Shown here: piece by piece, positions 24,313 to 42,370 of the stretch | Layout: every line of letters starts with the position of its first letter | Numbering within the stretch: position 1 is the first letter of the stretch | Source of the DNA: Mycobacteriales bacterium | GTDB taxonomy: Bacteria > Actinomycetota > Actinomycetes > JAFAQI01 | Assembly: GCA_035550055.1 (NCBI GenBank) | Contig: DASZRO010000020.1 | Coordinates: forward strand, 1-55,436 | Direction: 5' to 3' | Length of the DNA: 55,436 bases | Made by a program: the position numbers and the translations under genes | Notes under the pieces: model-generated | What the model saw: only the letters and a program-made list of their open reading frames with translations | Databases searched by the model: none | What the model was told of the DNA's origin: nothing

Positions 24313-24325
24313 CGAACCCTTCGGG

Positions 24326-25410: not shown

Positions 25411-25454
25411 TTGACAGCAGCGACGTGTGCTGAAAAGGTAGAACCTGGTTCTAC
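25411..25454 (+). promoter_or_regulatory. Promoter with TetR-type palindrome upstream of the ALDH operon
   Basis: TTGACA at 25411-25416 is a consensus -35 box. Downstream lies the perfect palindrome GTAGAACCTGGTTCTAC (25438-25454), with 7-base arms and a 3-base spacer, covering the expected -10/start area. The ribosome site agagga and ATG 25475 follow. The same box and palindrome, at the same 22-base distance, occur upstream of the gene starting at 42304. The half-site TAGAAC equals that of KstR-type operators, but those have a 2-base spacer. Confidence 0.75.
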
Positions 25455-25474
25455 TCCTGCAGAGGATGCGGTGA

Positions 25475-26938
25475 ATGTCGACACTGCTCGCGCAACGCAC
25501 GTCGTACCTCGCAGGTGAGTGGAGCACAGCGGGCGAGCCGTTCGAGGTCGAGAACCCCGCTGACGAGCAAGCTGTCTGTGAGGTCCTGAGCGCGACCGCG
25601 GCCGACGCCGAGCGGGCGATCCTGGCAGCCCGCGAGTCCTTCGACGCGGGGACCTGGGCCGACCTGCCGCGCACCGAGCGCGTCCGGGTCGTCAGCGCGC
25701 TGTGCGACCACATCGAGTCGCTGCACCAGCCGCTGGTCGACACGATGATCGCCGAAGCCGGCCAGCCCACGCGGTTCGCCGACGGCAGTCAGTTCCAAAG
25801 CGGTCTCGGTCTGGCGCGCGGGATGATCGACATCTACGCCACGATGTCGGACGAGCACCTCAACGACATCCCGGTCGACGAGGTCACCGCCGGCAAGGTG
25901 TTGCTCAGCGTGCGGCGCTACGAACCGGTCGGTGTCGTCGCAGCGATCACGCCGTACAACGCCGCACTGATCATGGCGTTCCAGAAAGTGATCCCCGCCC
26001 TGCTCGCCGGGAACTCGGTGGTGCTGCGGCCAAGTCCGCTGACGCCGATCTCCTCGCTCGCGTTCGGTGAGGCGGCCGACGCGGCCGGCCTGCCGCCAGG
26101 AGTGCTCAGCGTCGTGATCGAGGAGGGCTCATCCGCCGCGGAGCTGCTCACCACCCATCCCGCGGTCGACATGGTGTCCTTCACCGGGTCGACGGGTGTC
26201 GGCAAGCGGATTCTGGCCCAGGGTGCGGCCACCGTGAAGCGGGTCGCGCTGGAGCTCGGCGGGAAGTCGGCGCAGATCTATCTCGCCGACGCGGTCGAGA
26301 AGGCGGCGGTCGGCGCGGCGGCAGTCGTGGCGATGACGTCGGGGCAGGCCTGCGTCGCCGCCACCCGCATGCTCGTCCCGCACGAGACCAAGGACGACGT
26401 CCTCGCGGCGGTGTCCGGCATGTACGGCATGCTCGCGGTCGGCCCGCCGACCGAGCCCACCACGATGATCGGCCCGGTCATCTCGGCGGCTCAGCGGGCC
26501 CGCTGCGAGCAGTACGTCGAGCTCGCGCAGGAGCACGGCGGCAAGGTGGTCCTCGGCGGCGCCCGCCCCGACCACCTCGACCGCGGCTACTACTACCAGC
26601 CGACGGTGCTCGACGTACCCGACAACTCGAACCCGGCCGCTCGCGACGAGATCTTCGGTCCGGTGCTGTCGGTGATCGGCTACTCCGACGTCGACGAAGC
26701 GGTGCGGATCGCCAACGACAGCCCGTTCGGCCTGTCGGCTCAGGTCTACAGCGCGGACGTCGCGGCGGCGACCGCGGTCGCCCGTCGGCTGCGGACCGGT
26801 GCCGTCAACGTCAACGCCGGGATGTTCAGTGCCTACGCCCCGGGTGGCGGCTACAAGGAGAGCGGCCTCGGCCGAGAGCGCGGCACCGATGGCATTCGTG
26901 CCTTCCAGGAGCTCAAGCACATGACGATCGGGCAGTGA
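25475..26938 (+). CDS. Aldehyde dehydrogenase
   Basis: A 487-residue NAD(P)-dependent aldehyde dehydrogenase. The cofactor motif FTGSTGVGKRI, the catalytic glutamate in LELGGKS, and the nucleophile Cys293 in SGQACVAATR are present, and the C-terminal YKESGLGRERG is typical. It oxidises an aldehyde to the acid in the cytoplasm. It is the first gene of an eleven-gene plus-strand operon, directly behind the palindrome promoter. Together with the P450 and the SDR it could complete stepwise oxidation of a methyl or hydroxymethyl group to a carboxylate before CoA activation. Confidence 0.93.
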   Translation: MSTLLAQRTSYLAGEWSTAGEPFEVENPADEQAVCEVLSATAADAERAILAARESFDAGTWADLPRTERVRVVSALCDHIESLHQPLVDTMIAEAGQPTRFADGSQFQSGLGLARGMIDIYATMSDEHLNDIPVDEVTAGKVLLSVRRYEPVGVVAAITPYNAALIMAFQKVIPALLAGNSVVLRPSPLTPISSLAFGEAADAAGLPPGVLSVVIEEGSSAAELLTTHPAVDMVSFTGSTGVGKRILAQGAATVKRVALELGGKSAQIYLADAVEKAAVGAAAVVAMTSGQACVAATRMLVPHETKDDVLAAVSGMYGMLAVGPPTEPTTMIGPVISAAQRARCEQYVELAQEHGGKVVLGGARPDHLDRGYYYQPTVLDVPDNSNPAARDEIFGPVLSVIGYSDVDEAVRIANDSPFGLSAQVYSADVAAATAVARRLRTGAVNVNAGMFSAYAPGGGYKESGLGRERGTDGIRAFQELKHMTIGQ

Positions 26939-26960
26939 CGAACCGGATGGAGTCGCCCTC

Positions 26961-28172
26961 ATGACCAATCAGGCAACCGAGCTCAACCTCGACTGGCTCA
27001 TCTCCGTCGACGATCACATCCTCGAGCCGGCCCACCTGTGGGTCGACCGGGTCCCCGCCAAGGACCGCGACCGCGCTCCGCAGCTCGTCCAGGACGGGGA
27101 CCAGGAGTACTGGACCTATGACGGCAAGAAGATGCACAGCTCCGGGCTGTCCGCCGTCGCCGGCAAGTCCAAGGAGGAGTTCAGCCCAGAGCCGGTCACC
27201 TACGCCGAGATGCGACCGGGCTGTTACGACGCCAAGGCGCGGATCGAGGACATGGACCGCGCCGGCATCCTCGCCTCGCTGTGCTTCCCGACGTTGCCGC
27301 GGTTCTGCGGGCAGCTGTTCATGGAGGCGAGTGACCGGGAGTTCGGCTTCGTCTGCCTGCAGGCCTACAACGACTTCATCCTCGACGAGTGGTGTGCGGC
27401 GGCGCCTGGCCGCTACATCCCGCTCATCCTGATCCCGATGTGGGACCCGCCGCTCGCGGTCAAGGAGATGGAACGGTGCGCGGCGAAGGGCGCGACGGCG
27501 TTCGCGTTCTCGGAGAACCCGGCGCCGCTCGGGCTGCCGACGATTCACGACCCCGGTCGCTACTGGGACCCGGTGATGGCGGCAGCGTCCGACATCGGGA
27601 TGGTCGCCTCGATGCACGTCGGCTCGTCGTCCCAGGTGCCGCAGATCGCGCCCGACTCGCCGTTCATGGCCAACCTCGCCTGGGGTGCGATCCGTACCTC
27701 AGGCGCGATGTTGTCGTGGCTGTTCAGCGGGATGTTCACCCGCCACCCGGGGTTGAAGATCGCGTTGTCGGAGGGCGAGATCGGCTGGATGCCGTACTTC
27801 CTCGAACGGGCCGAGCAGGTGGTCGACAAGCAGCGGCACTGGGTGGCCAAAGGCCAGAAGTTCATGGACCACGCGACGACCGATGTGGACATGGACACCC
27901 TCGACGTCCGGGCGCTGTTCAAGGAACACGTCTACGGCTGCTTCATCGAGGACCACCACGGCATCGCAAGCCTCGACGAGATCGGCGTTGACAACGTCAT
28001 GTGCGAGACGGACTACCCGCACTCGGACTCGACCTGGCCGCGCTGCATCGACGTCGCCAAGGAGCTCGTCGCCCATCTCGAGCCGGAGGTGCAGTACAAG
28101 CTGCTGCGCGGCAACGCCGAGCGGCTCTACCGGTTCACGCCTGCCGAGCCACCGGCGCTGGTTCATGCCTGA
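26961..28172 (+). CDS. Amidohydrolase-family (ACMSD-like) protein
   Basis: A 403-residue protein of the amidohydrolase-2 group. It opens with SVDDHILEPAHLW, the usual variant of the metal-binding D-x-H motif in this branch. Metal-ligand positions continue in ASMHVGSS and CETDYPHSDSTWP. Family members are metal-dependent decarboxylases or hydrolases for aromatic or conjugated acids. It lies 22 bases after the ALDH gene and overlaps the ferredoxin start by eight bases. A decarboxylation or C-C hydrolysis step in the pathway is plausible, but the substrate cannot be inferred. Confidence 0.85.
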   Translation: MTNQATELNLDWLISVDDHILEPAHLWVDRVPAKDRDRAPQLVQDGDQEYWTYDGKKMHSSGLSAVAGKSKEEFSPEPVTYAEMRPGCYDAKARIEDMDRAGILASLCFPTLPRFCGQLFMEASDREFGFVCLQAYNDFILDEWCAAAPGRYIPLILIPMWDPPLAVKEMERCAAKGATAFAFSENPAPLGLPTIHDPGRYWDPVMAAASDIGMVASMHVGSSSQVPQIAPDSPFMANLAWGAIRTSGAMLSWLFSGMFTRHPGLKIALSEGEIGWMPYFLERAEQVVDKQRHWVAKGQKFMDHATTDVDMDTLDVRALFKEHVYGCFIEDHHGIASLDEIGVDNVMCETDYPHSDSTWPRCIDVAKELVAHLEPEVQYKLLRGNAERLYRFTPAEPPALVHA

Positions 28173-28362
28173 CGCCGAGATCGTCGTCGACCGCGACGCG
28201 TGCATGGGCAGCGGGACGTGCGTGGCGCTCGCGCCCTCGACGTTCGCCCAGGACGCCGAGATCAGGGCCGTCGTGATCGACCCGACCGGCGATGACCTCG
28301 TCACCATCGAAGAAGCCGTCAACGCCTGCCCCATGGGCGCCCTCAGTCTGGTCCGCAAATGA
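28165..28362 (+). CDS. [3Fe-4S] ferredoxin, P450 redox partner
   Basis: A 65-residue ferredoxin. Cysteines 13, 19 and 55 (DACMGSGTC and NACPMGA) are the three ligands of a [3Fe-4S] cluster; residue 16 is Ser where a 4Fe type would have Cys. This is the standard actinobacterial electron donor to cytochrome P450. The ATG at 28165 lies inside the end of the amidohydrolase gene, and the stop overlaps the SDR start. One SDR gene separates it from the P450. No ferredoxin reductase is encoded in the window. Confidence 0.92.
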   Translation: MPDAEIVVDRDACMGSGTCVALAPSTFAQDAEIRAVVIDPTGDDLVTIEEAVNACPMGALSLVRK

Positions 28363-29159
28363 AAGGTCGTGAAGGCAGCGTGCGCCTCGAAGGCAAGTCC
28401 GCCATCATCACCGGCTCAGGCAGCGGCGTCGGCCGCGCCGCCGCGCTGCGCTTCGCGCAGGAAGGCGCCAAGCTGGTCTGCGCCGACATCGACGCGGAGG
28501 GCGCCGCGCAGACGGTCAAGCTCGTCGAGGAGCAGGGCGGCACTGCGACCGCGGTCCGCACGGACGTCTCGGTCGAGTCGGACGTCATTGCCATGATCGA
28601 TGCTGCGGTGTCTGCGTACGGGCGCCTCGACATCCTTTTCAACAACGTCGGCGTCCCGACGCCGCGGCTGGGGTCGAAGCTCGAAGACCACACGGTCGAG
28701 GACTTCGACCGGCTGACGTCGATCAACTTCAAGGGCGTGTTCCTCGGCTGCAAGTACGCCGTACTCAAGTTCAAAGAGCAGGGCGGCGGTGGCGTGATCC
28801 TCAACACCGGGTCGGTCGCCGGCCTCGTCGGCTGGGGCGGGACCGTGTACGGCGCGACGAAGGGTGCCGTCCACCAGCTCACCAAGGCGATCGCGGTTGA
28901 AGCCGCCGGCGACGGGATCCGGGTCAACGCCATCTGCCCGGCCGGGATGCCCTACACCGGCTTCATGGGCGCCGGCGGGCTGACGGCGTCTGCGGAGGAC
29001 CTGGAGAAGATCGCGGCCGGGGTCGGTTCCACCCATCCGCTCGGCAGGCCGATCCTCGCCGAGGACTGCGCGGAGGCGGCGGTGTTCCTCTGTTCCGACG
29101 CAGCGTCCAACATCACCGGCGTCCTGCTGCCGGTGGACGGCGGCTACGTCGCGAGATGA
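28359..29159 (+). CDS. Short-chain dehydrogenase/reductase (FabG/HSD-like)
   Basis: A 266-residue classical SDR. The motifs are TGSGSGVG for cofactor binding, FNNVG, NTGSVAG with the catalytic serine, and YGATKGA with Tyr and Lys. The aspartate in CADIDAEG suggests NAD preference. The C-terminal LLPVDGGY is usual for the family. It probably oxidises a secondary alcohol on the pathway intermediate. Its start overlaps the ferredoxin stop (ATGA) and its stop overlaps the P450 start (ATGA), so the three are tightly coupled. Confidence 0.9.
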   Translation: MKGREGSVRLEGKSAIITGSGSGVGRAAALRFAQEGAKLVCADIDAEGAAQTVKLVEEQGGTATAVRTDVSVESDVIAMIDAAVSAYGRLDILFNNVGVPTPRLGSKLEDHTVEDFDRLTSINFKGVFLGCKYAVLKFKEQGGGGVILNTGSVAGLVGWGGTVYGATKGAVHQLTKAIAVEAAGDGIRVNAICPAGMPYTGFMGAGGLTASAEDLEKIAAGVGSTHPLGRPILAEDCAEAAVFLCSDAASNITGVLLPVDGGYVAR

Positions 29160-30397: not shown

Positions 30398-30405
30398 GGG
30401 TCAGC

Positions 30406-30846
30406 GTGAGCGAAGACGGATACGTCCAGCCGGACTACAGCCTGCTGGGGCCGGACCACGTCGCCGCCTACCAGGAGAGCGACGGCGAGGTCGGCTACAT
30501 CTGGAACGGCGTACCGACCTTGCTCCTCACCCACACCGGTCGGGTCAGCGGTAAGGCGCACACGACGCCCCTGATCTTCGCGGCGGACGGTGAGGACTAC
30601 GTCGTCGTCGCCTCGATGGGGGGTGCACCGGTGCACCCGCAGTGGTACCTCAACCTCGAGGCGAACCCCACCGCGAGGGTGCAGGTGCGCGCCGATCACG
30701 TCGACGTGCACGCTCGGGTGGCGGAAGGCGACGAGCGACGGCGGCTCTGGGACCTCGTCTGCGCGGCCTGGCCCAACTACAACGCCTACCAGTCGCGCAC
30801 CGAGCGGGTGATCCCCGTCGTGGTGCTGAGCCCGGCCGGCGGGTAG
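30406..30846 (+). CDS. Deazaflavin (F420)-dependent Ddn-family nitroreductase-like protein
   Basis: A 146-residue split-barrel protein. The family signature is clear: LLLTHTGRVSGKAHTTPLIF, then YVVVASMGGAPVHPQWYLNLEANPTARVQV. Ddn-like enzymes use reduced F420 to reduce quinones, enones or nitro groups. In actinobacterial catabolic clusters they may reduce a ring double bond. A GTG at 30406 is used, eight bases after the P450 stop. Its presence indicates that the host makes coenzyme F420. Confidence 0.88.
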   Translation: MSEDGYVQPDYSLLGPDHVAAYQESDGEVGYIWNGVPTLLLTHTGRVSGKAHTTPLIFAADGEDYVVVASMGGAPVHPQWYLNLEANPTARVQVRADHVDVHARVAEGDERRRLWDLVCAAWPNYNAYQSRTERVIPVVVLSPAGG

Positions 30847-30850
30847 TGAC

Positions 30851-32320
30851 GTGACCGACACCGCAACGCCGCCCCCGTCACAGGCGTCGCGCATCGCGGC
30901 CGTCGCGCAGGAGCGGCCGGATGCGGCCGGCTATCTGCAGGTGCGACTCGACGGCAGCGAGGAGGCGGTGACGTTCTCCTGGCTCGATCGACGATCCAGC
31001 CAGCTTGCCGGCGCGCTCGCCGAGCGCGGGGTCGGTCACGGTGACCGGCTCGCCCTCGGCCTGCGCAACTCCCCACAGTTCGCCCTGGCGGCGTTCGCCG
31101 CATGGAAGCTGGGAGCGGTCCCCGTCCCGGTTCGCTGGGACCTGCCGGACTGGGAGCTGACGCGGCTGCGCGAGGTGATCGACGCGCCGGTGTTCTTCAC
31201 GACCGACGACATCCCGTGGATCGACGAAACCGCCGATCGGCCGGTGCCCGAGCTTGCGGACACGGTCTCGCCGCATCTGCAGGGGATCTGCAGCAGCGGC
31301 TCCACGGGTACGCCGAAGATCATTCTCAGCGCCATGCCGGGGGTGTTCAACCCGCTCTACAGCACGCCGATGGCCGACAACTGGATGCCGATCCCGCGCC
31401 CGCAACGGATCCTGGTGCTCGCGCCGATGTATCACGTGAACGCCTTCAGCGCGCTGCACAACCTGCTCGCCGGTGACGACCTCGTCGTGCTGGAGAGGTT
31501 CGACGCCGCCCGAGCCGTCGAGCTGATCGAGAAGCATCGCATCACGACCTTCACCGCGACGCCGACGATGCTGCAGCGGATGGCCGACGTACCCGGTGTC
31601 GACGACCGCGACCTGTCGAGCATCGTGTGGATCCAGCAGGGCGCCGCGCCGATGCCGCCGTCGTTGGTGCATCGCTGGGCAGGGCTGGTCGGGCCGGAGA
31701 AGATCGTCATGGCCTACGGGATGACCGAGGCGGTCGGCATCACTGCACTGCGTGGCGACGAGTGGCTCAAGCACGAGGGCAGCGTCGGCGTCGGCATGCG
31801 CGGCACTGAGGTTCGCGTTCTCGACGACGCCGGCAACGACCTTCCTGTCGGTGAGATTGGTGAGATCTACATGCGGGCGCCGTCGTACGGCGGATCGACG
31901 TACGTCGGCGACGTGCCCCAGCTGCGGGAGACGCCGGACGGCTTCCGGACCGTCGGCGACATGGGCTACCTCGACGACGACGGCTACCTCTACGTCGCGG
32001 ATCGCCGGGTCGACATGATCATCAGCGGCGGCGCGAACGTCTTCCCCGCCGAGGTCGAGCACGCCCTGATCGACCACCCGAAGATCGCCGACGTCGTGGT
32101 GGTCGGGCTGCGTGACCCGCAGTGGGGGCGACGCGTGCACGCCATCATCGAGCCCGCGGTGGTCACCGACCCGCCGTCGCCGGACGAGGTCATCGCATAC
32201 GCCAAGTCGCGGCTCGCGGCGTACAAGGTCCCGAAGACCGTCGAGATCGTCGAGTCGATGCCGCGGAGCGAGGCAACCAAGGTCAACCGGTCCCGGCTCG
32301 TGGAGGCGCGCGGTGGATGA
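30851..32320 (+). CDS. Acyl-CoA ligase (AMP-forming)
   Basis: A 489-residue adenylate-forming ligase. The ATP loop is CSSGSTGTPK, with Ser replacing the usual Thr before the second glycine pair; MAYGMTEAVGI is the A5 motif, SGGANVFPAEVEHAL is A8, and the C-terminal catalytic lysine is in ATKVNRSRL. It is shorter than the ligase at 14500 and only loosely similar. It probably activates the acid made by the ALDH or imported by the partner transporter. The GTG start follows four bases after the Ddn-like gene. Confidence 0.88.
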   Translation: MTDTATPPPSQASRIAAVAQERPDAAGYLQVRLDGSEEAVTFSWLDRRSSQLAGALAERGVGHGDRLALGLRNSPQFALAAFAAWKLGAVPVPVRWDLPDWELTRLREVIDAPVFFTTDDIPWIDETADRPVPELADTVSPHLQGICSSGSTGTPKIILSAMPGVFNPLYSTPMADNWMPIPRPQRILVLAPMYHVNAFSALHNLLAGDDLVVLERFDAARAVELIEKHRITTFTATPTMLQRMADVPGVDDRDLSSIVWIQQGAAPMPPSLVHRWAGLVGPEKIVMAYGMTEAVGITALRGDEWLKHEGSVGVGMRGTEVRVLDDAGNDLPVGEIGEIYMRAPSYGGSTYVGDVPQLRETPDGFRTVGDMGYLDDDGYLYVADRRVDMIISGGANVFPAEVEHALIDHPKIADVVVVGLRDPQWGRRVHAIIEPAVVTDPPSPDEVIAYAKSRLAAYKVPKTVEIVESMPRSEATKVNRSRLVEARGG

Positions 32321-33524
32321 GCTCGCCTTCGACGGCATCAAGGTCGTCGAGCTGGCCCAGTGGGTGTTCGTCCCCTCTGCCGGGGCGTTGCTCGCCGACT
32401 GGGGCGCCGACGTCATCCACATCGAGCCGCTGACCGGCGACCCGTATCGCGGGCTGATGACGCAGGGCATCGGTGCCGGGCGCGCCGGGGTGAACCTCTC
32501 GATGGCGCTGGCCAACCGCAACAAGCGCTCGCTGGCGATCGACGTGCGAAGTGAGTCAGGCCGGGAGGTGTTCGGCCGCCTGCTCGAGTCGGCGGACGTC
32601 CTGCTCACCAGCCTGCGGCCGCGGGCGTTGGCGCGGTTGGGGCTCGACGCCGAGGAGGTCCGGGCTCGGTACCCGAGGCTGGTGTACGCGCGGGGCCACG
32701 GGTACGGAGCGCGCGGGCCCGATGCCGATCAGGCCGGCTACGACGCGTCGGCGTTCTGGGCGCGCGGCGGACTGGCCCACATCCTGTCGCCGCAGGACAG
32801 TGACTACCCGATCAGCCAGCGCGGCGCGATGGGTGACCGCAACGGCGCCATGGCGCTGGCGTTTGCGATCTCGGCGGCACTGTTGCGGCGCGAGCGGACC
32901 GGCGAGGGCGGTGTCGTCGACGTCTCGCTGCTCGCCACGGCGATGTGGACGCTGTCCTCCGACGTACTCGCCGCTCTCGGTGGTGACGAGCCGGTGCGGG
33001 TCAGTGGTCGTGGATCGACCCCCAACCCGCTGGTCGGCGTCTACCGCACCAAGGACGGCCGACACATCCAGTTGGTCTTCCTCGAAGGTGACCGGTACTG
33101 GTCGGCGTTCTGCGACCTGATCGGCCGGGCGGACCTTGCCGGCGACGAGCGTTTCGCGGACCTTGCGGCACGCCGGCAACACAGTGCCGAGTGCGTGGAC
33201 GCGCTCGACGCGGTGTTCGCCGAGCGGACGTACGCCGAATGGAAGTCGTTGCTCTCGGGTCTCGACGCGCCCTGGGCACCCGTCCAGGCGGTGACCGAGC
33301 TGGTCGACGATCCGCAGGTGACCGCGAACGGCTATGTCGGCGACGTCACCCTCGATGACGGCACGACCTACCGGCTGCCCAACGTTCCCGTTCAGTTCGA
33401 CGGCGAGCCCGCACAGCAGCGTCGAGCCCCCGAGCACGGCGAGCACACAGAGGCGATCCTGGCCGAGCTCGGCTACGACTGGGACGCCATCATCGCGATG
33501 AAGGACGCCGGGGCGATCCTGTGA
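32313..33524 (+). CDS. CaiB/BaiF CoA-transferase family protein
   Basis: A 403-residue class III CoA-transferase or racemase. The GTG at 32313 overlaps the ligase end by eight bases. Conserved parts include IKVVELAQWVFVPSAGALLADWGADVIHIEP, NRNKRSLAIDVRSESGRE, the expected catalytic aspartate in AGYDASAFWARGG, and RTGEGGVVDVSLL. It could epimerise a 2-methylacyl-CoA side chain or pass CoA between intermediates. Its stop overlaps the DUF35 gene (GTGA). It is distinct in sequence from the CaiB gene at 7874. Confidence 0.88.
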   Translation: MDELAFDGIKVVELAQWVFVPSAGALLADWGADVIHIEPLTGDPYRGLMTQGIGAGRAGVNLSMALANRNKRSLAIDVRSESGREVFGRLLESADVLLTSLRPRALARLGLDAEEVRARYPRLVYARGHGYGARGPDADQAGYDASAFWARGGLAHILSPQDSDYPISQRGAMGDRNGAMALAFAISAALLRRERTGEGGVVDVSLLATAMWTLSSDVLAALGGDEPVRVSGRGSTPNPLVGVYRTKDGRHIQLVFLEGDRYWSAFCDLIGRADLAGDERFADLAARRQHSAECVDALDAVFAERTYAEWKSLLSGLDAPWAPVQAVTELVDDPQVTANGYVGDVTLDDGTTYRLPNVPVQFDGEPAQQRRAPEHGEHTEAILAELGYDWDAIIAMKDAGAIL

Positions 33525-33931
33525 GCGACCGGCCGGTCCCCGTCCCGGACGAGGTGTCCGCGCCACACTGGCAGGCCGCTGCCAACCATCAGCTCACGAT
33601 CGCCCGGTGCAGTGAGTGCGGTTCGTTCAGCCATCCCCCGGACGTGGTCTGCGAGCACTGCGGCTCGGTGACACCGCAGTTCCGGTTCATGCCCGTCGAC
33701 GGCGCCGGGGTGGTCAGGTCGTGGACGGTCGTGCGGCAGGCGTTCCTGCCGGGCTTTGACACGCCGTACCGGCTGGTCGACGTCGAGCTCGACGCCCAGG
33801 CCGGCCTGCGGCTCGTCGCCCGCCTCCTCGACGACCTCGACGTCCAGCTGACGATCGGTGCGCGAGTCCGGGTCAGCTTCGAAGACATCGCGGACGGCGT
33901 GTCCGTGCCCGCGTTCCGGTTGGCGCCATGA
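33521..33931 (+). CDS. DUF35 OB-fold/zinc-ribbon acyl-CoA-binding protein
   Basis: A 136-residue protein with an N-terminal rubredoxin-like zinc ribbon (CSECG and CEHCG, four cysteines at about 30-50) and a C-terminal OB fold (about 55-130, SWTVVRQAFLPGF and VDVELDAQAG). DUF35 proteins form heteromeric complexes with thiolase-like Ltp proteins and hand them CoA substrates; the ChsH2-Ltp2 aldolase of steroid side-chain degradation is the known example. It overlaps the thiolase-like gene by four bases, exactly the pairing expected. Confidence 0.9.
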   Translation: MSDRPVPVPDEVSAPHWQAAANHQLTIARCSECGSFSHPPDVVCEHCGSVTPQFRFMPVDGAGVVRSWTVVRQAFLPGFDTPYRLVDVELDAQAGLRLVARLLDDLDVQLTIGARVRVSFEDIADGVSVPAFRLAP

Positions 33932-35124
33932 CATTCGCCCGCAACCAGGTTGCGATCGCCGGCTACGCCCAGAGCGTGATCGAGCGGCACAGCGCGCTGC
34001 CGCTCGGGGCGCTGGCGGTGCAGACCGCGCGCGCCGCCATTGCGGACGCCGGTCTGCAGGTTGCGCAGGTCGACGGCTTCGTCACCGGCAGCCTGTTCCC
34101 GACCGCCGGCGCCCACCTGGTCGAGGACGGCCGGACGGTCGTGACCGCCGACTGGCTCGCGCAGCACCTCGGCGCTCACCCGCGTTACGCGGCAGGCTTC
34201 CAGGGCTTCGGCCAGATTCCCGGCTCGGTCGCAATGGCGGTCAACGCGATCGTCTCGGGATCAGCGGACTACGTGCTTGTCCATCGTGCGCTGCACAACC
34301 CGCAGGGCAGCTATCACGCCAACCCGATGACCGAGATCGCCGGTCCGTTGCAATGGACCGGCCCGCTCGGCTTCTTCGGTCCGATCTCGATGATCGGCCT
34401 GACCTACAACGAATACCTGCAGCGCTACTCGGCGCCGCGGGAGGCGATGGCACACGTTGTCGTCGAGGCTCGTAAGAACGGCTCGCGCCTGCCGTGGTCC
34501 TGCTGGCACGGCAAGCCGGTCTCGATCGAGGACTACCTTGCCGCACCGCTGATCAGCGACCCGATCTGCCGGTACGACTGCGACCTGCCGATCGACGGCG
34601 TCGCGGCGTTCGTGCTGACCTCGGCAGAGCGGGCGCGTGACCTGCCGCACCGGCCGGTCTACGTCACCGGCATCGCATCCGGCCAGCCGAACCGGCGACG
34701 GCTGCCGACGCACTGGCCGCTCGACGACGTCATGGCGGTCGGCGCCGACGTGGCGCGCCGGCTGTGGGAGAGCTCCGGGCTCGGTCACGACGACGTCGAC
34801 CTGCCGCAGCTCTACGACGGGTTCTCGCCGTTCGTCTACTTCTGGCTGGAGTGTCTCGGCTTCTGCCCCGTCGGAACGGCGCACGAGCTCGCCGCCTCGG
34901 GCGGCCTCGACGCCGACTCGCCTGATGGCCTTCCGGTGCTCTCCGGCGGCGGCGCGTTGGGCAACGGCCGGATGCACGGCGTACCGCAGATGCTCGAGTG
35001 CTACCTGCAGCTGTCGGGTCGCGCCGCCGGCCGGCAGCGGCCGGGCGCTAGCGTCGGGCTTGCCTGCCATGCCTCGCCGCACCTGGGCGGGGCCGTCGTC
35101 TACTCCTCGGAGTCCGCCTTATGA
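33928..35124 (+). CDS. Thiolase-like lipid-transfer (Ltp/SCP-x type) protein, probable retro-aldolase
   Basis: A 398-residue thiolase-fold protein. The site that normally holds the nucleophilic cysteine reads GFQGFGQIPGS, with no cysteine, so Claisen thiolysis is unlikely. LPQLYDGFSPF supplies a conserved Tyr, and the C-terminal half has GGALGNGRMHG and ACHASPHLGG. Absence of the cysteine, together with a coupled DUF35 gene, is what is known for Ltp2-type retro-aldolases that cleave beta-hydroxyacyl-CoAs. I infer side-chain cleavage releasing a short acyl-CoA. The paralogue at 9080 is an ordinary thiolase. Confidence 0.85.
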   Translation: MTFARNQVAIAGYAQSVIERHSALPLGALAVQTARAAIADAGLQVAQVDGFVTGSLFPTAGAHLVEDGRTVVTADWLAQHLGAHPRYAAGFQGFGQIPGSVAMAVNAIVSGSADYVLVHRALHNPQGSYHANPMTEIAGPLQWTGPLGFFGPISMIGLTYNEYLQRYSAPREAMAHVVVEARKNGSRLPWSCWHGKPVSIEDYLAAPLISDPICRYDCDLPIDGVAAFVLTSAERARDLPHRPVYVTGIASGQPNRRRLPTHWPLDDVMAVGADVARRLWESSGLGHDDVDLPQLYDGFSPFVYFWLECLGFCPVGTAHELAASGGLDADSPDGLPVLSGGGALGNGRMHGVPQMLECYLQLSGRAAGRQRPGASVGLACHASPHLGGAVVYSSESAL

Positions 35125-35840
35125 CCGAGCCGCTCGAGCCGCTCGAAGCCACGTCGGCTTCGTGGGTCGAGCGCGCTGCGGACCGCTCGCCGTCGGTGCA
35201 GCGATCGCGAACCCGCAGCGTCAAGCGCGCTCAGCAGCTCGTCGAGGCGGCGAAGCGGCTGGTGCTGGAGAAAGGCTCGGCGTTCACCACGCAGGAGCTG
35301 GTCAAAGAGGCGGGCATCGCCGTACAGACCTTCTACAAGTACTTCGAAGGCAAGGACCAGGTCCTGCTCGCGGTCTTCGAAGAGCTCATCTCCGAGGCGT
35401 GCGCCGGCCTCGAGACGGCCGCGCGCGAGCTGCCGGACCCGGTCTCCCGGCTGCGCTTCTACATCCGCTCGATCGTGCTCGCCATCAACGATCGCGGCGA
35501 CGGAGGTCCGCGGTTCATCACCAGCGAGCACTGGCGGCTGCATCAGCTCTACCCGGCTGAGCTGGCGCGCGCGACCGGTGGGTTCGCCCGGCTGTTGCTG
35601 CCGGAAATCCGTGCCGCTCAGGAGACCGGTGCGCTGCGACCGGCGAACGCGGAGTACGACGCGTGGCTGATCCAGCAGCTGGTGATATCGGTGTTCCACC
35701 ACTACGAGTACGCCTCGCACCCGGAGTCGGCGGAGACGATCGGCGACCGGCTCTGGGACTTCTGCTTCGCGGCACTCGGCGGCCGAGCTGACGGTGCCGC
35801 GCCGGTGTCGTCCAGGCGGTCCGTCAGACGTCGAAGCTGA
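35121..35840 (+). CDS. TetR-family regulator, candidate regulator of both convergent operons
   Basis: A 239-residue regulator. The N-terminal 35 residues are a flexible extension; the helix-turn-helix is FTTQELVKEAGIAVQTFYKYF at about 54-74, followed by a helical ligand domain. It is the last gene of the ALDH-P450 operon and its start overlaps the thiolase-like gene (ATGA). Its stop overlaps the convergent esterase gene by 17 bases. It is the only regulator between the two copies of the GTAGAAC-NNN-GTTCTAC palindrome, so it is the leading candidate to bind both. Direct evidence for binding is lacking. Confidence 0.88.
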   Translation: MTEPLEPLEATSASWVERAADRSPSVQRSRTRSVKRAQQLVEAAKRLVLEKGSAFTTQELVKEAGIAVQTFYKYFEGKDQVLLAVFEELISEACAGLETAARELPDPVSRLRFYIRSIVLAINDRGDGGPRFITSEHWRLHQLYPAELARATGGFARLLLPEIRAAQETGALRPANAEYDAWLIQQLVISVFHHYEYASHPESAETIGDRLWDFCFAALGGRADGAAPVSSRRSVRRRS

Positions 35841-37161
35841 CTTCCGCCGGCAGGGCGATCCGTAGCCTCAGGCGGCCGGCCTCGTCAGCGATCAGCGTCA
35901 GGTGGCGCGCGCTCGCACCATGCCGCACTGTCGTCGCGATCTCCTCGCCCGGCCCGTAGAACACCGGCGTCGTCACCGTCGCCGTACCGTGCCCGGCCAG
36001 GGTGAAGCCGGCCCGGCCGGCGTGCTCGAGCGCGGTGAACTGTTCCGCGACCGTGCGGCGGTCGGCAACCGACCAGCCCCACTGGCTCCAGCGCGGCGCC
36101 GTGGCCTCATAGCTGACCTCGCGCGGCGGCTGCGCGTTGCGGGCGAACACGCGCATCAGCTCCGGCAGGTAGCTGCGCATGTCGTGGATCCAGTACGGGA
36201 AGCTGTGCGTCCCTGCGCCGTAGTCGGTGAGCTTGATCGGGACGTGGGTAGCGACCGCGTGGTCGTACATCTGGTGGGTCTCGGCGTGCGCCAGCACTTC
36301 GACGGCGCCGAGCGGGATGAACTGCGGCTTGTCGTACGGTCCCGGCAGGCCATTGCCGGTGTAGAGGTGTACGTCCATGCCGCGGAGGTTGGTGACCAGC
36401 GTGGTCGGATCGTGGCCCTGCCAGTTGACCTCGTGCCGCGGGAGCGATCCGAAGATGGAAAACGGAGGGACGAAGTCGCTGATGGTCGTGCTGATCGGAA
36501 AGGATTGGAACAGCGGCTTGAGGTTGCCGTAGGCGATGTCGACCGCACCCGAGAACGCCGCAGCGGAGACGAACAGGTCCGGATGCCGGGTGGCAGCGAC
36601 CATCGACCCGAACCCGCCTTGCGAAAGACCCGCGACCGCACGTCCCGAGCGGTCAGCCACGGTTCGGAAGTTCTCGTCGACCCAGGGGATCAGCTCCCGG
36701 ACCTGAAACGTCTCCCACTGGTTCGGCCCCAACGACGTGTGCCGGTCCAGCCAGTTGGAGAACCACCCGTCGCCGACACCGAAGCCCACATCCGGCATCA
36801 CGACGATCAGCGGCAGGCTCCGGGTGAGACCTTCGATGTCGCCGTACGCCGTCCACGAGTTGGCGTTCTCGCCGGTCCCCGCGTAGAGGAAGAGCGTGGG
36901 ATAGCGGCGAGCGACGTGAGAGGCGTAGCCGGTCGGCAGGAGCACTCGGACATTCACCGGCTTGCCGAGCGCGGCGGTGTCGACGGTGGCGTTGACCTCG
37001 CGCGCGTCGACCCGGCGCACCGCGGTGACGTGCAGGCCGTGACCGCTTCGCAGATGCGGTGCCGGAGCCGGCGCGGCGGAGCTGATCGTCGCAACGACTG
37101 CCAGGCTGAGCGTCACGAGAGCCAGTAGCAGGCACGCGGTGCTGAGCGGCCGCCGCGTCAT
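35824..37161 (-). CDS. Secreted alpha/beta hydrolase (esterase D / antigen-85-like)
   Basis: A 445-residue secreted esterase. The ATG at 37161 overlaps the livF stop (ATGA); the frame upstream is only livF in another reading. Residues 1-30 are a signal peptide (TACLLLALVTLSLAVVATISSAA). The domain has LFLYAGTGENANSW, nucleophile Ser180 in AVAGLSQGGFGSM, and a C-terminal histidine in GAGTHSFPYW. It resembles the esterase D, feruloyl esterase and mycolyltransferase family. After about residue 360 there is a further beta-rich segment. As last gene of the ABC operon it may free the transported acid outside the cell. Confidence 0.87.
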   Translation of the reverse strand: MTRRPLSTACLLLALVTLSLAVVATISSAAPAPAPHLRSGHGLHVTAVRRVDAREVNATVDTAALGKPVNVRVLLPTGYASHVARRYPTLFLYAGTGENANSWTAYGDIEGLTRSLPLIVVMPDVGFGVGDGWFSNWLDRHTSLGPNQWETFQVRELIPWVDENFRTVADRSGRAVAGLSQGGFGSMVAATRHPDLFVSAAAFSGAVDIAYGNLKPLFQSFPISTTISDFVPPFSIFGSLPRHEVNWQGHDPTTLVTNLRGMDVHLYTGNGLPGPYDKPQFIPLGAVEVLAHAETHQMYDHAVATHVPIKLTDYGAGTHSFPYWIHDMRSYLPELMRVFARNAQPPREVSYEATAPRWSQWGWSVADRRTVAEQFTALEHAGRAGFTLAGHGTATVTTPVFYGPGEEIATTVRHGASARHLTLIADEAGRLRLRIALPAEVSFDV

Positions 37162-37952
37162 CGCGCCGGCTTCTTGGTGGCGGCCCTCGTCGTACGCCGG
37201 GAACGCTGGCGCGGCGCCGGTGACTCCGTGGGCGTTGCCCCGAGGAAGACGGCGCGAGCCAGGTCGTCGCGCTCGATCAGGTCCGCCGTACGACCCTCGA
37301 ACCTGATCGCGCCCTTCTCCATGAACACCGCACGTTCGCAGATCGACGCGGCCACGTTGAGGCTCTGCTCGACGAGCACGAGGGCGACACCGGTCGCGCG
37401 GATCGACTCCAACGACTCGAGCAGTGTCGCGACCACGGTCGGCGCCAACCCGAGCGAGAGCTCGTCGATGCAGAGCACGGTCGGTCGCAGGATCAGCGCC
37501 TTGCACAGCGCCAGCTGCTGCTGCTCGCCGCCGGACAGCGTGCCCGCCCGCTGGTCGCGGCGCTCGGCGATGCGAGGGAAGATCGCATAGGCGTCGTCCA
37601 GCCGCGCTTTCAGCTGCCGGGTGTCGCGCCGCAACACGAAGCCGGCCATCTGCAGGTTCTCCGCGACGGTGAGATCGCCGAAGATCGCCCTTCCGCCCGG
37701 GACGAGGGCCAGGCCGTCTCGCACTCGCTGCTCGGCCGAAGTTGCGCTGACGTCACGGGCCGACAGCTCGACCCGGCCGCGGCTCGGCCGCTCGAGCCCC
37801 GCCGCGACCCGCAGCAGCGTCGACTTGCCCGCGCCATTGGTGCCGAGCAACGCGAGGGCTTCACCGGGGGCGACCGCCAGCGACACGTCGAAAAGCACCT
37901 GGAGACGCCCGTAGGAGAAGTCGACGTTGCGCACCGCGAGAGCGCTCGTCAT
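37158..37952 (-). CDS. ABC transporter ATP-binding protein LivF
   Basis: A 264-residue ATPase of the HAAT importer class. Walker A is GTNGAGKST (residues 37-45), the signature is LSGGEQQQLAL, and Walker B is VLCIDELSLGLAP. The C-terminal end has a basic Arg/Lys/Ala tail (APRQRSRRTTRAATKKPAR), similar to the linker that joins LivF to LivG in the single-chain transporter at 19805. Here LivF remains separate from the LivH-LivM-LivG fusion encoded upstream and overlaps it by four bases. Confidence 0.92.
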   Translation of the reverse strand: MTSALAVRNVDFSYGRLQVLFDVSLAVAPGEALALLGTNGAGKSTLLRVAAGLERPSRGRVELSARDVSATSAEQRVRDGLALVPGGRAIFGDLTVAENLQMAGFVLRRDTRQLKARLDDAYAIFPRIAERRDQRAGTLSGGEQQQLALCKALILRPTVLCIDELSLGLAPTVVATLLESLESIRATGVALVLVEQSLNVAASICERAVFMEKGAIRFEGRTADLIERDDLARAVFLGATPTESPAPRQRSRRTTRAATKKPAR

Positions 37953-40708
37953 CGCGCACCGGACCGGGCGACGGCGATCTCATTCGTGCCGAGGTAGGAC
38001 GACACGACGAGCTCGTTGTGGCGAATCTCCTCCGGGCTTCCGGATGCGATGACCCGGCCACCGGACAGCGCGTAGACCCGGTCACACAGGCCCATCAGCA
38101 AGGGCATGTCGTGCTCGATGACCAGCACGCTGCAGCCGAGCGAGTCGCGGACCTGACGAAGCAACGGTCCGAACGCTTCGGCGTCGCGCTGCGCGAGGCC
38201 CGCGGTCGGCTCGTCGAGGAGCAGCACCTTCGGCGCCGCGGCGAGCTGCGTCGCGATCTCGCAGACTCGGCGAGTGCCGGTCGACAGCTCGCCGGTGAGG
38301 GTGTCGGCCCACGGCTCGAGATTGAGCGTCGAGATGATCTCCTCGACCGTCGCCTTCGCTCGCCGTTCGGTCATCCGGCTCCACGGCGCGGCAACCGCGC
38401 TCGACAACAGACTCGACCGCTGGCGCGATGCGAGGGCGACCCGCAGCGCCTCGCGGACGGTCAGCCCGGGGAACAGCCGCGCCTCTTGGAAGTTGCGGCC
38501 GAGCCCGAGATGCGCCCGCTGGTCAGGAGCGAGGTTCGTGACAGCGCGGCCGAACACCCGGACGCTGCCGGCGGTGGCGGCGAGATGGCCGGACACCACG
38601 TTCATCAAGGTCGTCTTGCCCGCGCCGTTCGGTCCGATCAGGCCGACGATCTCCCCGGTGCGGACCTCGAGGTCGACGTCAGAGAGGATCACCCGGCCGC
38701 CCAGCTTCGTGGCAAGGCCCGCCACTTCGAGCGGTGCACCCTCGGCGGTCTCGGCCACGGTTTCGACGTCGCGCGCGACCGATGCGAGGAAGCGCTCCCA
38801 TCCGCTCTGCGCGATGCTCGCGATCCCGCCCGGGCGGATCAGCGGGATGACGACAAGGCCGATGCCGCCGAGCAGCAGCTGGAACCCGATCTGCTGACCG
38901 AACGAACCGAACACCGCAGTCAGGTGGGGGCTGATGAAGAAGGCGGGTACGTAGATCACCAGCGCTCCCGCAATGGCACCGGCGACGGAGCCGAGGCCGC
39001 CGATGACCGCCGGAGCAAGCAGGACGAGGGAGAGCTGAGCGGGCACGAGGTCGATGGACATGGTCTGCCAGGCGAGCCCCCAGACCACACCGGCCGCGGC
39101 GACCATTGCCCCGGAGAGCGCGAGGGCCCCGAGTCGCACGGACGTCGGCGTGACCCCGAAGCTGGACACCGCACGCGGGTTGTCGCGAGCAGCCACCATG
39201 AGCTGGCCGGGCAGTGATCGGCGTACCGCGCGGCTCGCGACCGCGACGAGGACGAGCAGCGCAACCGCGACGTAGTACAGCCCGAGCTGGGAATGCAGGA
39301 TCCCGAAGGGTGAGAGCCCGACGTCGTTGACGATGACCGCGGCGTTGCCCGGCGTGCCTATCCAGGACTGGTTGAACAGCCACGTCGGAGCGACCACCGC
39401 CAGGCCGAGCGTCGTCACCGCGAGAGCGAGCCCGCCGCTGCGCACGGCTGGAATGGCCACGATCAGCATCAGCACGGCACCGGCCACTGCCGCGATCAGC
39501 AGGATCAGCGGCAGCGAAAGGTGGTGGGCGCCGAGCTTCGCGGTGAGATAGGCGCCCAGCCCGAGCAACGCGAAGTGGCCGAGGCTCACCTGGCCGGACC
39601 AGCCGACCAGCATCGTCAGCGAAACGCTCGCGATCGCCATCACGACGACGACCAGCAGGTCGAAACGGCTGCTGAGGGAGTTGAAGAACGGCACGACCGG
39701 GATCACCACCGCGATCGCCAGCCCGAACAGGCCCAGCAGCGGGGCCTGCGCCCGCACGACGAACCGGTCGCGGACCGCCGCTGGTATCAGCGTGGGCCGG
39801 AACTCCTCGCTTGCCGCGAGCTCTCCGGAGCGCAGTGCGCCGAGTGCCCTGGCGCGAACGATGACGATGAGCGCGACGAGTCCGAACACCACCAGCTCGG
39901 ACGGGCCGCTGCTGCTCGTCTGCGACAACGTGATCTGCTCCGCTTCGCCGATGAGCAACCCGCCGAGCAGCGCCATCGGCACGCTGGTGAAACCGCCGAG
40001 CGCGGCCGCACCCAGCGCGCGCAGCAGCAGGTCGGGACCGAAACCCGCGGCGTTGTCGGTGCCCTGGCTGGGCGCCTGGAGCACTGCGGTCACCGCACTG
40101 AGACCGCCGGCGAGCGCCCAAGCGAACGCGTTGACGCCACGCAGCGGGATGCCGCACAGCCGGGCCGCATCGGGGTTGGTGGCGCAGGCGCGGATCGCCT
40201 TCCCCCAGATGCTCAGCCGCAGGAAGACCGTCAGCGCGATGACGAGCACCGGCACCAGGATGAGAATCAGGATGTGCTGCCCGCCGAGCACGATGCCGGC
40301 GACGGTGAAGCTCTTGTGCAGCGGCAGCGGATATCCCTTGAACTCCAGCTTCGTCACGTCCGGCTGGACCGCGGGGATGTAGTTGAGCGCCAGCAGCAGC
40401 TCGGAGACCCCGACGCTGACGAGCAGCATCGTCGACGGACTGCGCTGCTGCGTGATCAGCCGCCGGATGATCAGCCGTTCGACGAGGATCCCGACCAATG
40501 CCCCGACCGCGATGACTGTCGGGAAGGCCGCCCACCAGCTCCAACCGTCGTCGAGCACGAACTTCGACAGCAGCAACGCCGAGAGGGCGCCGAACTGCGC
40601 ATGAGCGAGGTTGAGGAACCGGTTCGTCTTGTAGACCAGGACGATGCCGACGGCGAGAAGACCGTAGGTGAGACCGCTGATGAAGCCGAGAACCAGCCCG
40701 CCTTCCAT
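37949..40708 (-). CDS. ABC importer fusion: LivH-LivM permeases with LivG ATPase
   Basis: A 919-residue chain. Residues 1-300 are a LivH-like permease (FLNLAHAQFGALSALL). Residues 325-640 are a LivM-like permease (LVGWSGQVSLGHFALLG, MVAARDNPRAVSSFG). Residues 665-915 are a LivG-like ATPase with Walker A GPNGAGKTT, signature LSTGTRR and Walker B VLLLDEPTAGLAQ. The ATG at 40708 lies three bases after the binding-protein stop. With the separate LivF it makes a complete importer. Both transporters in this window fuse the two permeases, but the order of the ATPases differs. Confidence 0.92.
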   Translation of the reverse strand: MEGGLVLGFISGLTYGLLAVGIVLVYKTNRFLNLAHAQFGALSALLLSKFVLDDGWSWWAAFPTVIAVGALVGILVERLIIRRLITQQRSPSTMLLVSVGVSELLLALNYIPAVQPDVTKLEFKGYPLPLHKSFTVAGIVLGGQHILILILVPVLVIALTVFLRLSIWGKAIRACATNPDAARLCGIPLRGVNAFAWALAGGLSAVTAVLQAPSQGTDNAAGFGPDLLLRALGAAALGGFTSVPMALLGGLLIGEAEQITLSQTSSSGPSELVVFGLVALIVIVRARALGALRSGELAASEEFRPTLIPAAVRDRFVVRAQAPLLGLFGLAIAVVIPVVPFFNSLSSRFDLLVVVVMAIASVSLTMLVGWSGQVSLGHFALLGLGAYLTAKLGAHHLSLPLILLIAAVAGAVLMLIVAIPAVRSGGLALAVTTLGLAVVAPTWLFNQSWIGTPGNAAVIVNDVGLSPFGILHSQLGLYYVAVALLVLVAVASRAVRRSLPGQLMVAARDNPRAVSSFGVTPTSVRLGALALSGAMVAAAGVVWGLAWQTMSIDLVPAQLSLVLLAPAVIGGLGSVAGAIAGALVIYVPAFFISPHLTAVFGSFGQQIGFQLLLGGIGLVVIPLIRPGGIASIAQSGWERFLASVARDVETVAETAEGAPLEVAGLATKLGGRVILSDVDLEVRTGEIVGLIGPNGAGKTTLMNVVSGHLAATAGSVRVFGRAVTNLAPDQRAHLGLGRNFQEARLFPGLTVREALRVALASRQRSSLLSSAVAAPWSRMTERRAKATVEEIISTLNLEPWADTLTGELSTGTRRVCEIATQLAAAPKVLLLDEPTAGLAQRDAEAFGPLLRQVRDSLGCSVLVIEHDMPLLMGLCDRVYALSGGRVIASGSPEEIRHNELVVSSYLGTNEIAVARSGAR

Positions 40709-40711
40709 GGT

Positions 40712-42304
40712 CTAGTACGCCGGTCCGAACGCAGTGACCGTCTTCCAGCAGCGACAGTAGGAGTGGTACTCGATCTCGCGTTGGAAGCTGCCGCCGGTGA
40801 GCTGGCCCGGTCGGTTCCACACCGAGTCGCCGTCGTACGCCGACCGGAACCGGCCCATGGTCCCGAGGTGCTCGACCATGCTGGTCGGCGACGGGTTCAC
40901 CCCGTCGTTGTTGATCGCCTGCGCCAGGAAGAAGATCAGGTCGCAGAAGCTGCTGGCTCCGTCGTCGGTGTTCTCGTTCTTGATGCCGGGCAGCTTGTTG
41001 GCCAGCAGGATCTTGTTGCAGAGCAGCTCGCGAGGCGAATGGATGCCGGAGTTGAGCTCGCCGGAGCGAGTGCTCGTGATCGCGATCGCGCCGTTGAAGT
41101 TCTTCGTCCACTTCGAGGCGCCGTTGCCGGTGGTGGTGGTGCCGTAGTCAGAGGTCAGCCAGGTCGGATACCAGTGCTGCTGGTTGGCGTAGCCCACGTA
41201 GTTCTCGTTGTTGAACACGGTCGACGCGAGGAAGACGGTGCTCGCTCCCGCGGCGTGTGCCTTGATGACAGCCGCGAGGATCTGCGTCGGCGACCCGATC
41301 AGCTCGCACGACAGGGTGTAGACCACGATCTGGCTGGACTTCACGCCGACGCTGGCGAGATCCTTCGCGATCTCGGCGTTGGCCGACGGCAGGCAGCTGT
41401 CCTCGATGATCGCGAGCTTCTTGAACTTCGGTGCCTCGAAGAACCCGTGCGCCGCTGCGCCGAGAATGCCGTCACGCACCTGCTCCTCGGAGGATGCGAT
41501 CGGGCTGAACAGGTACGGGTACGCCTCGCGCGCCTGCGTCGCTCCGGGGGAGGTGTTCGTCTCCAGCGGCACGTGGTTGCTGATGAAGCACTGCTGCGAG
41601 ACCGGCGTCACATAGCTGCCGAGGTTGATGACGGCGATGGGCTTGTCCTGCGCCATCTTCAGGCAGGAGGACTGCTGGTTGTTCGAGTCGAGCGGGTTGA
41701 CCTGGTAGATCTTCACCGCCAGCTTTCGGCCGCAGGCGACGCCACCGTGGTGATTGATGTAGTTCGCGATCGCCTCGATGATCCCGTTCTGGTCCGACGG
41801 GATGTTGAACGCGGCGTCCCCGATCGCACCGGCGAGCTGGACGGTCGCCACGTCAACCTTGACCTCGGTCGGGGTGATCCCATCACCGCTCGTCAAGGTC
41901 GCTCCGGCGCAGTCGCTCGCCGGCTTGGCGGACCTGCCCGGCTTGGCGGGGTGCCCGCTCGTGGCCCGTTCGGGGGTACGGGAGCCCGGCGTCGTCGCCG
42001 ACCGACCGCCGCTCACGGCAGTTCCCGGCGGGGTCGTCGGGCCTCCGGGCAGGGCGGGGGTGGTCGGGGTGGTCTGCGCGGGAGAGGTCGGACCGGCGTT
42101 GTGGTGGTGCGAACCCGGGCCCGGTGGTACGACGACGCTCGTCGGGCCGCTCACGGGGAAGCCGGTCGAGGACGAGGAGGTGGCGACTGGCACCAACGCG
42201 AACGCCAGAAGAGTCAGCACGACGGCAGTGGCCAAGACCGCGGCCCAGCGCTCGGCGCGCGGCCCCTCTCTCAGCCACAGCCGGAACTGCGCGAACGGCG
42301 GCAC
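40712..42304 (-). CDS. ABC transporter substrate-binding protein, type 1 fold, membrane-tethered
   Basis: A 530-residue binding protein. Residues 20-43 are a hydrophobic helix with no lipobox cysteine after it; a Pro/Thr/Gly-rich spacer follows to about 135. The type 1 binding domain starts at GDGITPTEVKVDVATVQLAG and includes VINLGSYVTPVSQQCFISNH and KLAIIEDSCLPSANAEIA. Several cysteines are spaced through the domain and may form disulfides. It is the first gene of the minus-strand ABC operon, directly behind the palindrome at 42326-42344. Substrate is unknown; the context suggests a hydrophobic acid. Confidence 0.88.
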   Translation of the reverse strand: MPPFAQFRLWLREGPRAERWAAVLATAVVLTLLAFALVPVATSSSSTGFPVSGPTSVVVPPGPGSHHHNAGPTSPAQTTPTTPALPGGPTTPPGTAVSGGRSATTPGSRTPERATSGHPAKPGRSAKPASDCAGATLTSGDGITPTEVKVDVATVQLAGAIGDAAFNIPSDQNGIIEAIANYINHHGGVACGRKLAVKIYQVNPLDSNNQQSSCLKMAQDKPIAVINLGSYVTPVSQQCFISNHVPLETNTSPGATQAREAYPYLFSPIASSEEQVRDGILGAAAHGFFEAPKFKKLAIIEDSCLPSANAEIAKDLASVGVKSSQIVVYTLSCELIGSPTQILAAVIKAHAAGASTVFLASTVFNNENYVGYANQQHWYPTWLTSDYGTTTTGNGASKWTKNFNGAIAITSTRSGELNSGIHSPRELLCNKILLANKLPGIKNENTDDGASSFCDLIFFLAQAINNDGVNPSPTSMVEHLGTMGRFRSAYDGDSVWNRPGQLTGGSFQREIEYHSYCRCWKTVTAFGPAY

Positions 42305-42325
42305 CCCGAGCTCCCGTCCTCGAAA

Positions 42326-42370
42326 GGTAGAACGCGGTTCTACCTCAGCAAACTAGGTGCTTCCAGTCAA
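42326..42370 (-). promoter_or_regulatory. Promoter with the same TetR-type palindrome, upstream of the ABC operon
   Basis: The perfect palindrome GGTAGAACGCGGTTCTACC (42326-42344) has 8-base arms and a 3-base spacer. On the minus strand TTGACT (42370-42365) lies exactly 22 bases upstream of TAGAAC, the same distance as at 25411-25454. The start codon of the binding-protein gene is 21 bases downstream. Two copies with matching geometry and different spacer bases argue for a true shared operator. Confidence 0.78.

Follow-up and report, generated by a model that had tools for sequence, protein, structure and literature searches.

A pair of matching palindromes as predicted operators of a probably TetR-regulated catabolic island: a KstR-like half-site with a longer spacer

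The mycobacterial cholesterol regulon is controlled by KstR, for which the motif TAGAAC(N2)GTTCTA has been described (PMC1995591). In the steroid side-chain aldolases ChsH1-ChsH2-Ltp2 and Sal-Shy, a thiolase-like subunit works with a DUF35 partner. PtmU3 is a non-heme diiron monooxygenase with an amidohydrolase fold (PMC10127204). Here, a 17-kb catabolic island with resemblances to these systems was analysed in a 55,436-nt stretch of a Mycobacteriales bacterium (contig DASZRO010000020.1 of assembly GCA_035550055.1), referred to as the window in its full length. The palindrome GTAGAAC-N3-GTTCTAC precedes each of the two convergent operons of the island (Table 1), and comparative genomics makes a strong case that both copies are operators. 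Very probably they serve one substrate-inducible regulon, which would be repressed by the TetR encoded in the island, released by a pathway ligand and dedicated to the catabolism of a polycyclic isoprenoid-type acid.

Besides the two palindromes, the window held no match with up to three mismatches, and the pair was located where the first-pass annotation, made from the letters alone, had placed the only full copies. The looser pattern TAGAAC-N(0-8)-GTTCTA was detected at the same two positions only and in none of 100 dinucleotide-preserving shuffles. A palindrome search of the whole genome and of relatives, proposed by the same annotation, resulted in two exact copies, one copy with one mismatch and none with two mismatches in the 3.54-Mb genome, and in diverged sites at the corresponding gene cassettes of relatives; the reversed pattern, scanned genome-wide as a control, gave no matches. 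The exact palindrome was found in none of the 296 other genomes of the class. The reading of the palindrome as a private feature, based on the lack of exact copies in family and class genomes, was dropped after the mismatch-tolerant scan of the cassette loci, where the site was conserved but diverged. The proposal that the two operons share one operator was supported.

The relative loci (L059-L158) comprised 80 loci from an Ltp protein search of named genomes and 20 regions around TetR orthologs. Loci with at least two of P450, aldehyde dehydrogenase (ALDH) and the PF04909 amidohydrolase-fold protein (AMH) were taken as cassette loci, which applied to 63 of the 80, and 13 loci with no strong match to any of the three served as controls. 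The conserved cassette CAIB-DUF35-LTP-ALDH-AMH-FDX-SDR-P450-DDN-TETR, often with a ligase gene (LIG), is mostly 50-80% identical at the protein level and is present in Frankia, Parafrankia, Pseudofrankia, Nocardia, Mycobacterium, Rhodococcus, Streptomyces, Actinomadura, Amycolatopsis and Acidimicrobiia. The TetR ortholog (about 45-56% identity) was in view at 51-52 of the 63 cassette loci, depending on the alignment-length cut.

Pairs of TAGAAC and GTTCTA with at most one mismatch were counted at spacers of 0-10 in these loci, relying solely on the consensus read from the window; 19 pairs had a spacer of 3 and 0-3 pairs were found at each other spacer. A spacer-3 site with up to two mismatches was carried by 33/63 cassette loci and by 0/13 control loci. 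A position weight matrix (PWM) built from these sites resulted in 72 sites with a score of at least 16, compared with a mean of 3.5 from column-permuted matrices. When the score was lowered to at least 14, 89 sites were obtained, 78 of them no more than 400 bp ahead of a matched cassette-type gene, 11 elsewhere and none within a matched cassette gene; the genes behind the sites included CAIB (37), ALDH (19), LIG (12) and TETR (5). A site was present at 40 of the 51 TetR-bearing cassette loci. Operator and cassette are found together in dozens of bacteria associated with soil or plants. The degenerate pattern GTAGAAYNNNRTTCTAC occurred in 3 of 297 class genomes, each with the TetR and cassette. 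Three of its four matches were located at cassette promoters and the fourth, in Nocardia carnea (G041:C11:13192), was on a cassette contig before an ABC-permease-like gene. Tandem operators exactly 23 bp apart were observed before CAIB in Nocardia L114, L125, L128, L142, L143, L152 and others, an arrangement that suggests cooperative dimers.

The position of the operators relative to the promoters was determined by pattern scans. In the window, TTGACW-N22-TAGAAC occurred only at the two operators, on their transcribed strands, and the wider pattern TTGACW-N(20-24)-TAGAAC was likewise restricted to them, with no occurrence in 100 shuffles. Both window sites, and sites at L084, L086 and L156, have TTGAC 27 bp ahead of the operator start. 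The exact N22 offset was carried by only 3 of the 72 relative sites, a fourth (L081) being one base off; the offset was therefore rejected as a general feature and regarded as lineage-limited. In these sequences, TG stands one base ahead of the predicted -10 hexamer, as in extended -10 promoters. If the spacer has its usual 17 bp, the last base of the -10 hexamer coincides with the T of the operator, so that the operator would directly adjoin the -10 and extend over the start region. The 22-base distance between TTGAC(A/T) and TAGAAC pointed out in the first-pass annotation is thus real but is better read as ordinary -35/-10 spacing, and the operator would occupy the classic position of a repressor over the transcription start region.

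Several points weigh against operators bound by the island TetR as the full account. Because the PWM was derived from the loci that it was then used to scan, its counts are in part circular, and its threshold is also reached at 3 of the 13 control loci, of which some are truncated cassettes. The loci are phylogenetically related and some overlap, which means that the counts are non-independent events. No site was found at the chosen threshold in 11 of the 51 TetR-bearing cassette loci, and 7 of the 12 cassette loci without a visible TetR do carry one, several loci being truncated. The operators of other genomes are placed at various operon starts, and the strict bracket of two operators is not conserved. 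The substrate class is derived from distant homology only.

The island TetR is the best candidate for the cognate regulator because it co-occurs with the cassette and the operator across genera. Its model (predicted local distance difference test, pLDDT, 90.3) has the TetR fold, matching TetR structures with Z up to 18.9, and its structural neighbours include the acyl-CoA-binding FadR, RolR, EthR2 and KstR (Z 16.1 for the latter). Two stretches characterise the orthologs: a common N-terminal arm, SWAERAADRSPxVQRSRxRS, and the recognition region EAGVALQTFYR, which is strongly conserved. In the PDB sequence search the matches were mostly at the level of the helix-turn-helix and therefore do not name the ligand. 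The tetR gene closes the rightward operon of the island. Several mycobacteria have the operator immediately ahead of a tetR gene, and at L098, L103, L106, L112 and L113 the cassette tetR follows it immediately.

It is unlikely that a different regulator acts on the operators, such as an unlinked one or the TetR encoded at 44843-45613, only 2.5 kb from operator 2. The 11 loci with TetR and no strong site and the 7 with a site and no visible TetR speak for such a regulator. However, about 50 of 63 loci have the cassette TetR, whose gene immediately follows the operator in some genomes, and the TetR at 44843 shares only 32% identity with the island TetR over about 105 residues. The existence of this gene also amends the first-pass annotation, according to which the TetR at 35121 is the only regulator between the operators; that holds, with a second TetR gene just outside the island.

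Still less probable is the binding of a KstR orthologue to the sites, with the island as an extension of a sterol regulon. The half-site TAGAAC/GTTCTA is identical to that of the KstR motif (PMC1995591), as the first-pass annotation had recognized along with the spacer one base longer, and the genome holds a sterol side-chain-like operon. However, the two window sites and those of the relatives do not have the KstR arrangement TAGAAC-N2-GTTCTA (core TnnAACnnGTTnnA), their spacer being 3; only this spacer is enriched and N2 is at background in the cassette loci. Among the 49 PDB sequence matches of the island TetR (E ≤ 0.001), no chain was named KstR, although KstR was among its structural matches. 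Contig C78 of this genome has N2-type sites ahead of a P450 gene whose operon includes genes for DUF35, Ltp and two acyl-CoA dehydrogenases and looks by sequence like a sterol side-chain operon; the N3 matrix scan of this operon gave no match. The genome's N2 sites as a whole were not enriched over the reversed-pattern control, therefore the contrast between N2 and N3 in C78 is suggestive. One genome appears to hold both spacer classes, and the suspicion of a class distinct from KstR agrees, for the operator, with the enrichment at spacer 3 alone and with the KstR-type sites in front of the C78 operon. A paralogous cluster was observed on contig C111 (L171), with TetRs of 31-32%, CaiB of 49% and Ltp of 31% identity, a P450 and a ligase. 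Its promoter regions contain the related spacer-3 sites GGAGAATAATGTTCTTG (L171:10698) and GGAGAGTCACATTCTAT (L171:16094), hinting at a family of N3 operators.

Located near both outer edges of the 17-kb block, the palindromes could be recombination sites that bracket the island or the termini of a mobile element, but this is very improbable, as the palindromes of relatives precede CAIB, ALDH, LIG or TETR at operon starts, singly, in tandem or internally, and are not tied to an island end. Chance is a negligible explanation: with three mismatches at least two matches arose in 14 of 100 shuffles, but exact copies arose in none, the genome has one further copy with a single mismatch, and the site is conserved across genera.

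Two operons under one operator, as proposed, do not necessarily make a closed regulon, and the closed part of the first-pass claim is doubtful. The third copy, GTAGAACCTTGTTCTAT, with one mismatch, is located on contig C3 (G000:C3:7654-7670; L004), with the arrangement TTGACG-N17-TAGAAC. It lies 56 bp upstream of an unlinked gene for a secreted 798-aa alpha/beta-hydrolase, with a second hydrolase gene adjacent upstream. In the Acidimicrobiia locus L154, a secreted hydrolase of 722 aa likewise has an operator ahead of it, in this case a perfect one, and the two hydrolases are members of one broad family (1e-22, with 25% identity across 467 columns). Their orthology was weakened by two closer homologues of the L154 hydrolase in the genome of the island (C21, C35), which have no sites, and is kept as suggestive only. 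It is plausible from these sequences that the regulon extends to the C3 hydrolase.

Taking the island TetR as the repressor, the following scheme is proposed; in it we infer binding, the direction of control, the ligand, the substrate and the reaction order, next to the computed sites, conservation, spacer specificity, promoter position and TetR co-occurrence. The TetR would dimerise on GTAGAAY-N3-RTTCTAC, next to the -10 and over the start region of each convergent operon, and would jointly repress the uptake genes (esterase, binding protein, Liv-type ATP-binding cassette (ABC) importer) and the catabolic genes. Since tetR is in the rightward operon, the circuit would be autoregulated. After entry and activation of the substrate, a ligand, most likely an acyl-CoA intermediate, would bind the TetR and free both promoters. 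The substrate is probably a carboxylic acid of the polycyclic isoprenoid type that is released from an ester. Extracellular ester hydrolysis would be followed by import, CoA ligation, the P450/ferredoxin step and possibly a diiron-type hydroxylation through the PF04909 protein, then by SDR/ALDH oxidation, CaiB CoA transfer and a retro-aldol-type cleavage by DUF35-Ltp.

What emerges is a predicted regulator-operator pair, together with a defined set of genes for a pathway that is uncharacterised and occurs in dozens of actinobacteria, among them Frankia and mycobacteria from the environment. All three, the operator, the regulator and the pathway, are now directly testable, and substrates could be screened via the ligand-induced release of the TetR. 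If the proposal is true, a one-base change in the spacer can separate co-resident TetR regulons that share a half-site.

Table 1. Promoter elements, operators and genes of the island (window positions).
Feature	Position	Strand	Basis
TTGACA, probable -35 of the rightward operon	25411..25416	+	TTGACW-N22-TAGAAC pattern scan
Operator 1, GTAGAACCTGGTTCTAC	25438..25454	.	palindrome pattern matching
Aldehyde dehydrogenase (PF00171)	25475..26938	+	Pfam
PF04909 amidohydrolase-fold protein, candidate non-heme diiron oxygenase	26961..28172	+	closest solved relatives DitZ (8uyr), PtmU3 (6omp)
Ferredoxin, small open reading frame (ORF), 3Fe-4S type (CMGSGTC...CP)	about 28165..28362	+	translation, orthologs
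Short-chain dehydrogenase (SDR)	28359..29159	+	domain match
Cytochrome P450	29156..30397	+	domain match
F420H2-dependent quinone reductase family, Ddn-like	30406..30846	+	domain match
Acyl-CoA ligase	30851..32320	+	closest solved relative bile acid-CoA ligase, 4lgc, 1e-75
CaiB/BaiF family III CoA-transferase	32313..33524	+	domain match; start inferred from orthologs
DUF35/ChsH2-type OB-fold and Zn ribbon protein	33521..33931	+	OB_ChsH2_C/zf-ChsH2 domains
Ltp thiolase-like protein, YDGF motif (Y296)	33928..35124	+	closest solved relative Ltp2, 6ok1, 1.5e-37
TetR-family regulator, conserved N-terminal arm, proposed cognate repressor	35121..35840	+	PF00440, 1.1e-10
Secreted esterase (PF00756, signal peptide)	35824..37155, start about 37155	-	Pfam
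LivF-type ABC ATPase	37158..37952	-	domain match
LivH-LivM-LivG fusion, 919 aa	37949..40708	-	two BPD_transp_2 stretches and ABC_tran
Probable solute-binding protein, N-terminal hydrophobic helix	40712..42304	-	synteny with 44%-identical L154 protein
Operator 2, GTAGAACGCGGTTCTAC	42327..42343	.	palindrome pattern matching
TTGACT, probable -35 of the leftward operon	42365..42370	-	TTGACW-N22-TAGAAC pattern scan

The gene content and the convergent layout described earlier agree with the domain searches and ORF translations. The operons meet tail to tail, the TetR and esterase genes overlapping by 17 nt at their 3' ends. The solute-binding protein had no match in the Pfam search; syntenic LivF, LivHMG and binding-protein genes are present in L154. 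In the mycobacterial loci L116, L120, L121, L124, L130 and L137, an Mce operon (MlaD, Mce4_CUP1 domains) adjoins the cassette and replaces the Liv-type importer, in most cases divergent from the operator and ALDH. Kinases of the APH/EcKL type are often located beside the cassette (cluster c8 at 26 loci, c12 at 15 loci; e.g. L083:4719-5780, L157:7085-8167) and are absent from the window island; they may point to a phosphorylated intermediate. In Sphingomonadaceae (L135, L138), a DUF35-Ltp pair (Ltp 62-63% identical) occurs without the TetR or operator, next to genes that look by sequence like acyl-CoA dehydrogenase and biotin carboxylase. The stretch upstream of the island (19619-25390) has another fused Liv-type transporter, encoded by an ORF of 1283 aa, as well as genes for a rubber-oxygenase-like MPAB/Lcp protein and for a secreted esterase similar to polyhydroxybutyrate (PHB) depolymerases, all lacking the operator. 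Beyond operator 2, the second TetR gene adjoins a copper amine oxidase gene (44843-48049).

The open-access literature that was searched contained no description of the cluster, which the first-pass annotation likewise did not know as a characterised pathway. By sequence, the pathway resembles terpenoid/steroid acid catabolism. The enzyme relatives, the Mce neighbours and the secreted esterase together point to a substrate that is probably a hydrophobic, presumably isoprenoid, esterified acid. Tentatively, and with somewhat more doubt than belief, the island may represent an undescribed, widespread actinobacterial catabolism of polycyclic isoprenoid acid esters, with a new YDGF class of DUF35-coupled lyases, a CoA-ester diiron oxygenase of the PtmU3/DitZ fold and a dedicated TetR class whose operator is one spacer base away from that of KstR, the importer being swapped from genus to genus (a Liv-type ABC system here and in Frankia, an Mce system in mycobacteria) and the operator kept.

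Compared with Ltp2 and Sal, the island Ltp has the thiolase-like fold by sequence, an adjacent DUF35 partner and the catalytic-base Tyr of YD-x-F. However, TcLtp2 His296 and Tyr344 and CtSal Cys304 are all absent at the aligned positions, Arg replacing Tyr344 in the phmmer alignment, so that neither known catalytic set (YDHF with Tyr344, or YDCY) was found. The motif is YDGF in 66 of the 68 orthologs where it was recognised, in place of the known YDHF or YDCY, therefore the chemistry may differ; the YDGF Ltp may still work like an aldolase.

The first-pass annotation listed an amidohydrolase, and the gene for a protein of that fold is present. The alignment to 6omp and 8uyr revealed the two-metal ligand set as well: the counterparts of the metal ligands of the non-heme diiron oxygenases LynB7 and PtmU3 (D17, H19, H219, E271, D351, H354), plus D356, are at least 97% conserved in 59 sequences. 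Since DitZ and PtmU3 are the closest relatives and the diiron ligands are conserved, the protein is a candidate CoA-ester hydroxylase of the diiron oxygenase type rather than an amidohydrolase. PtmU3 acts in platensimycin biosynthesis, whereas the PF04909 protein is part of a presumed catabolic operon. The solved protein named DitZ is its closest PDB relative, and from the name we take it to belong to a dit cluster. Like the island, the dit abietane diterpenoid clusters of Pseudomonas abietaniphila and P. abieticivorans have a P450, further oxidative genes and DitF, a putative sterol carrier-like protein. Unlike it, they have ring-hydroxylating and ring-cleavage dioxygenases; a Pfam search of the island for the Rieske/dioxygenase domain of DitA gave no match.

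With the regulon of KstR (Rv3574), the island shares a TetR-family repressor, here a predicted one, the half-site, an operator near the -10 and lipid/sterol-type catabolic genes (PMC1995591). It differs in the spacer of 3 instead of 2, in the N-terminal arm signature of its own TetR, in the small size of the regulon and in the enzyme set of YDGF Ltp, PF04909 protein, CaiB and Ddn.

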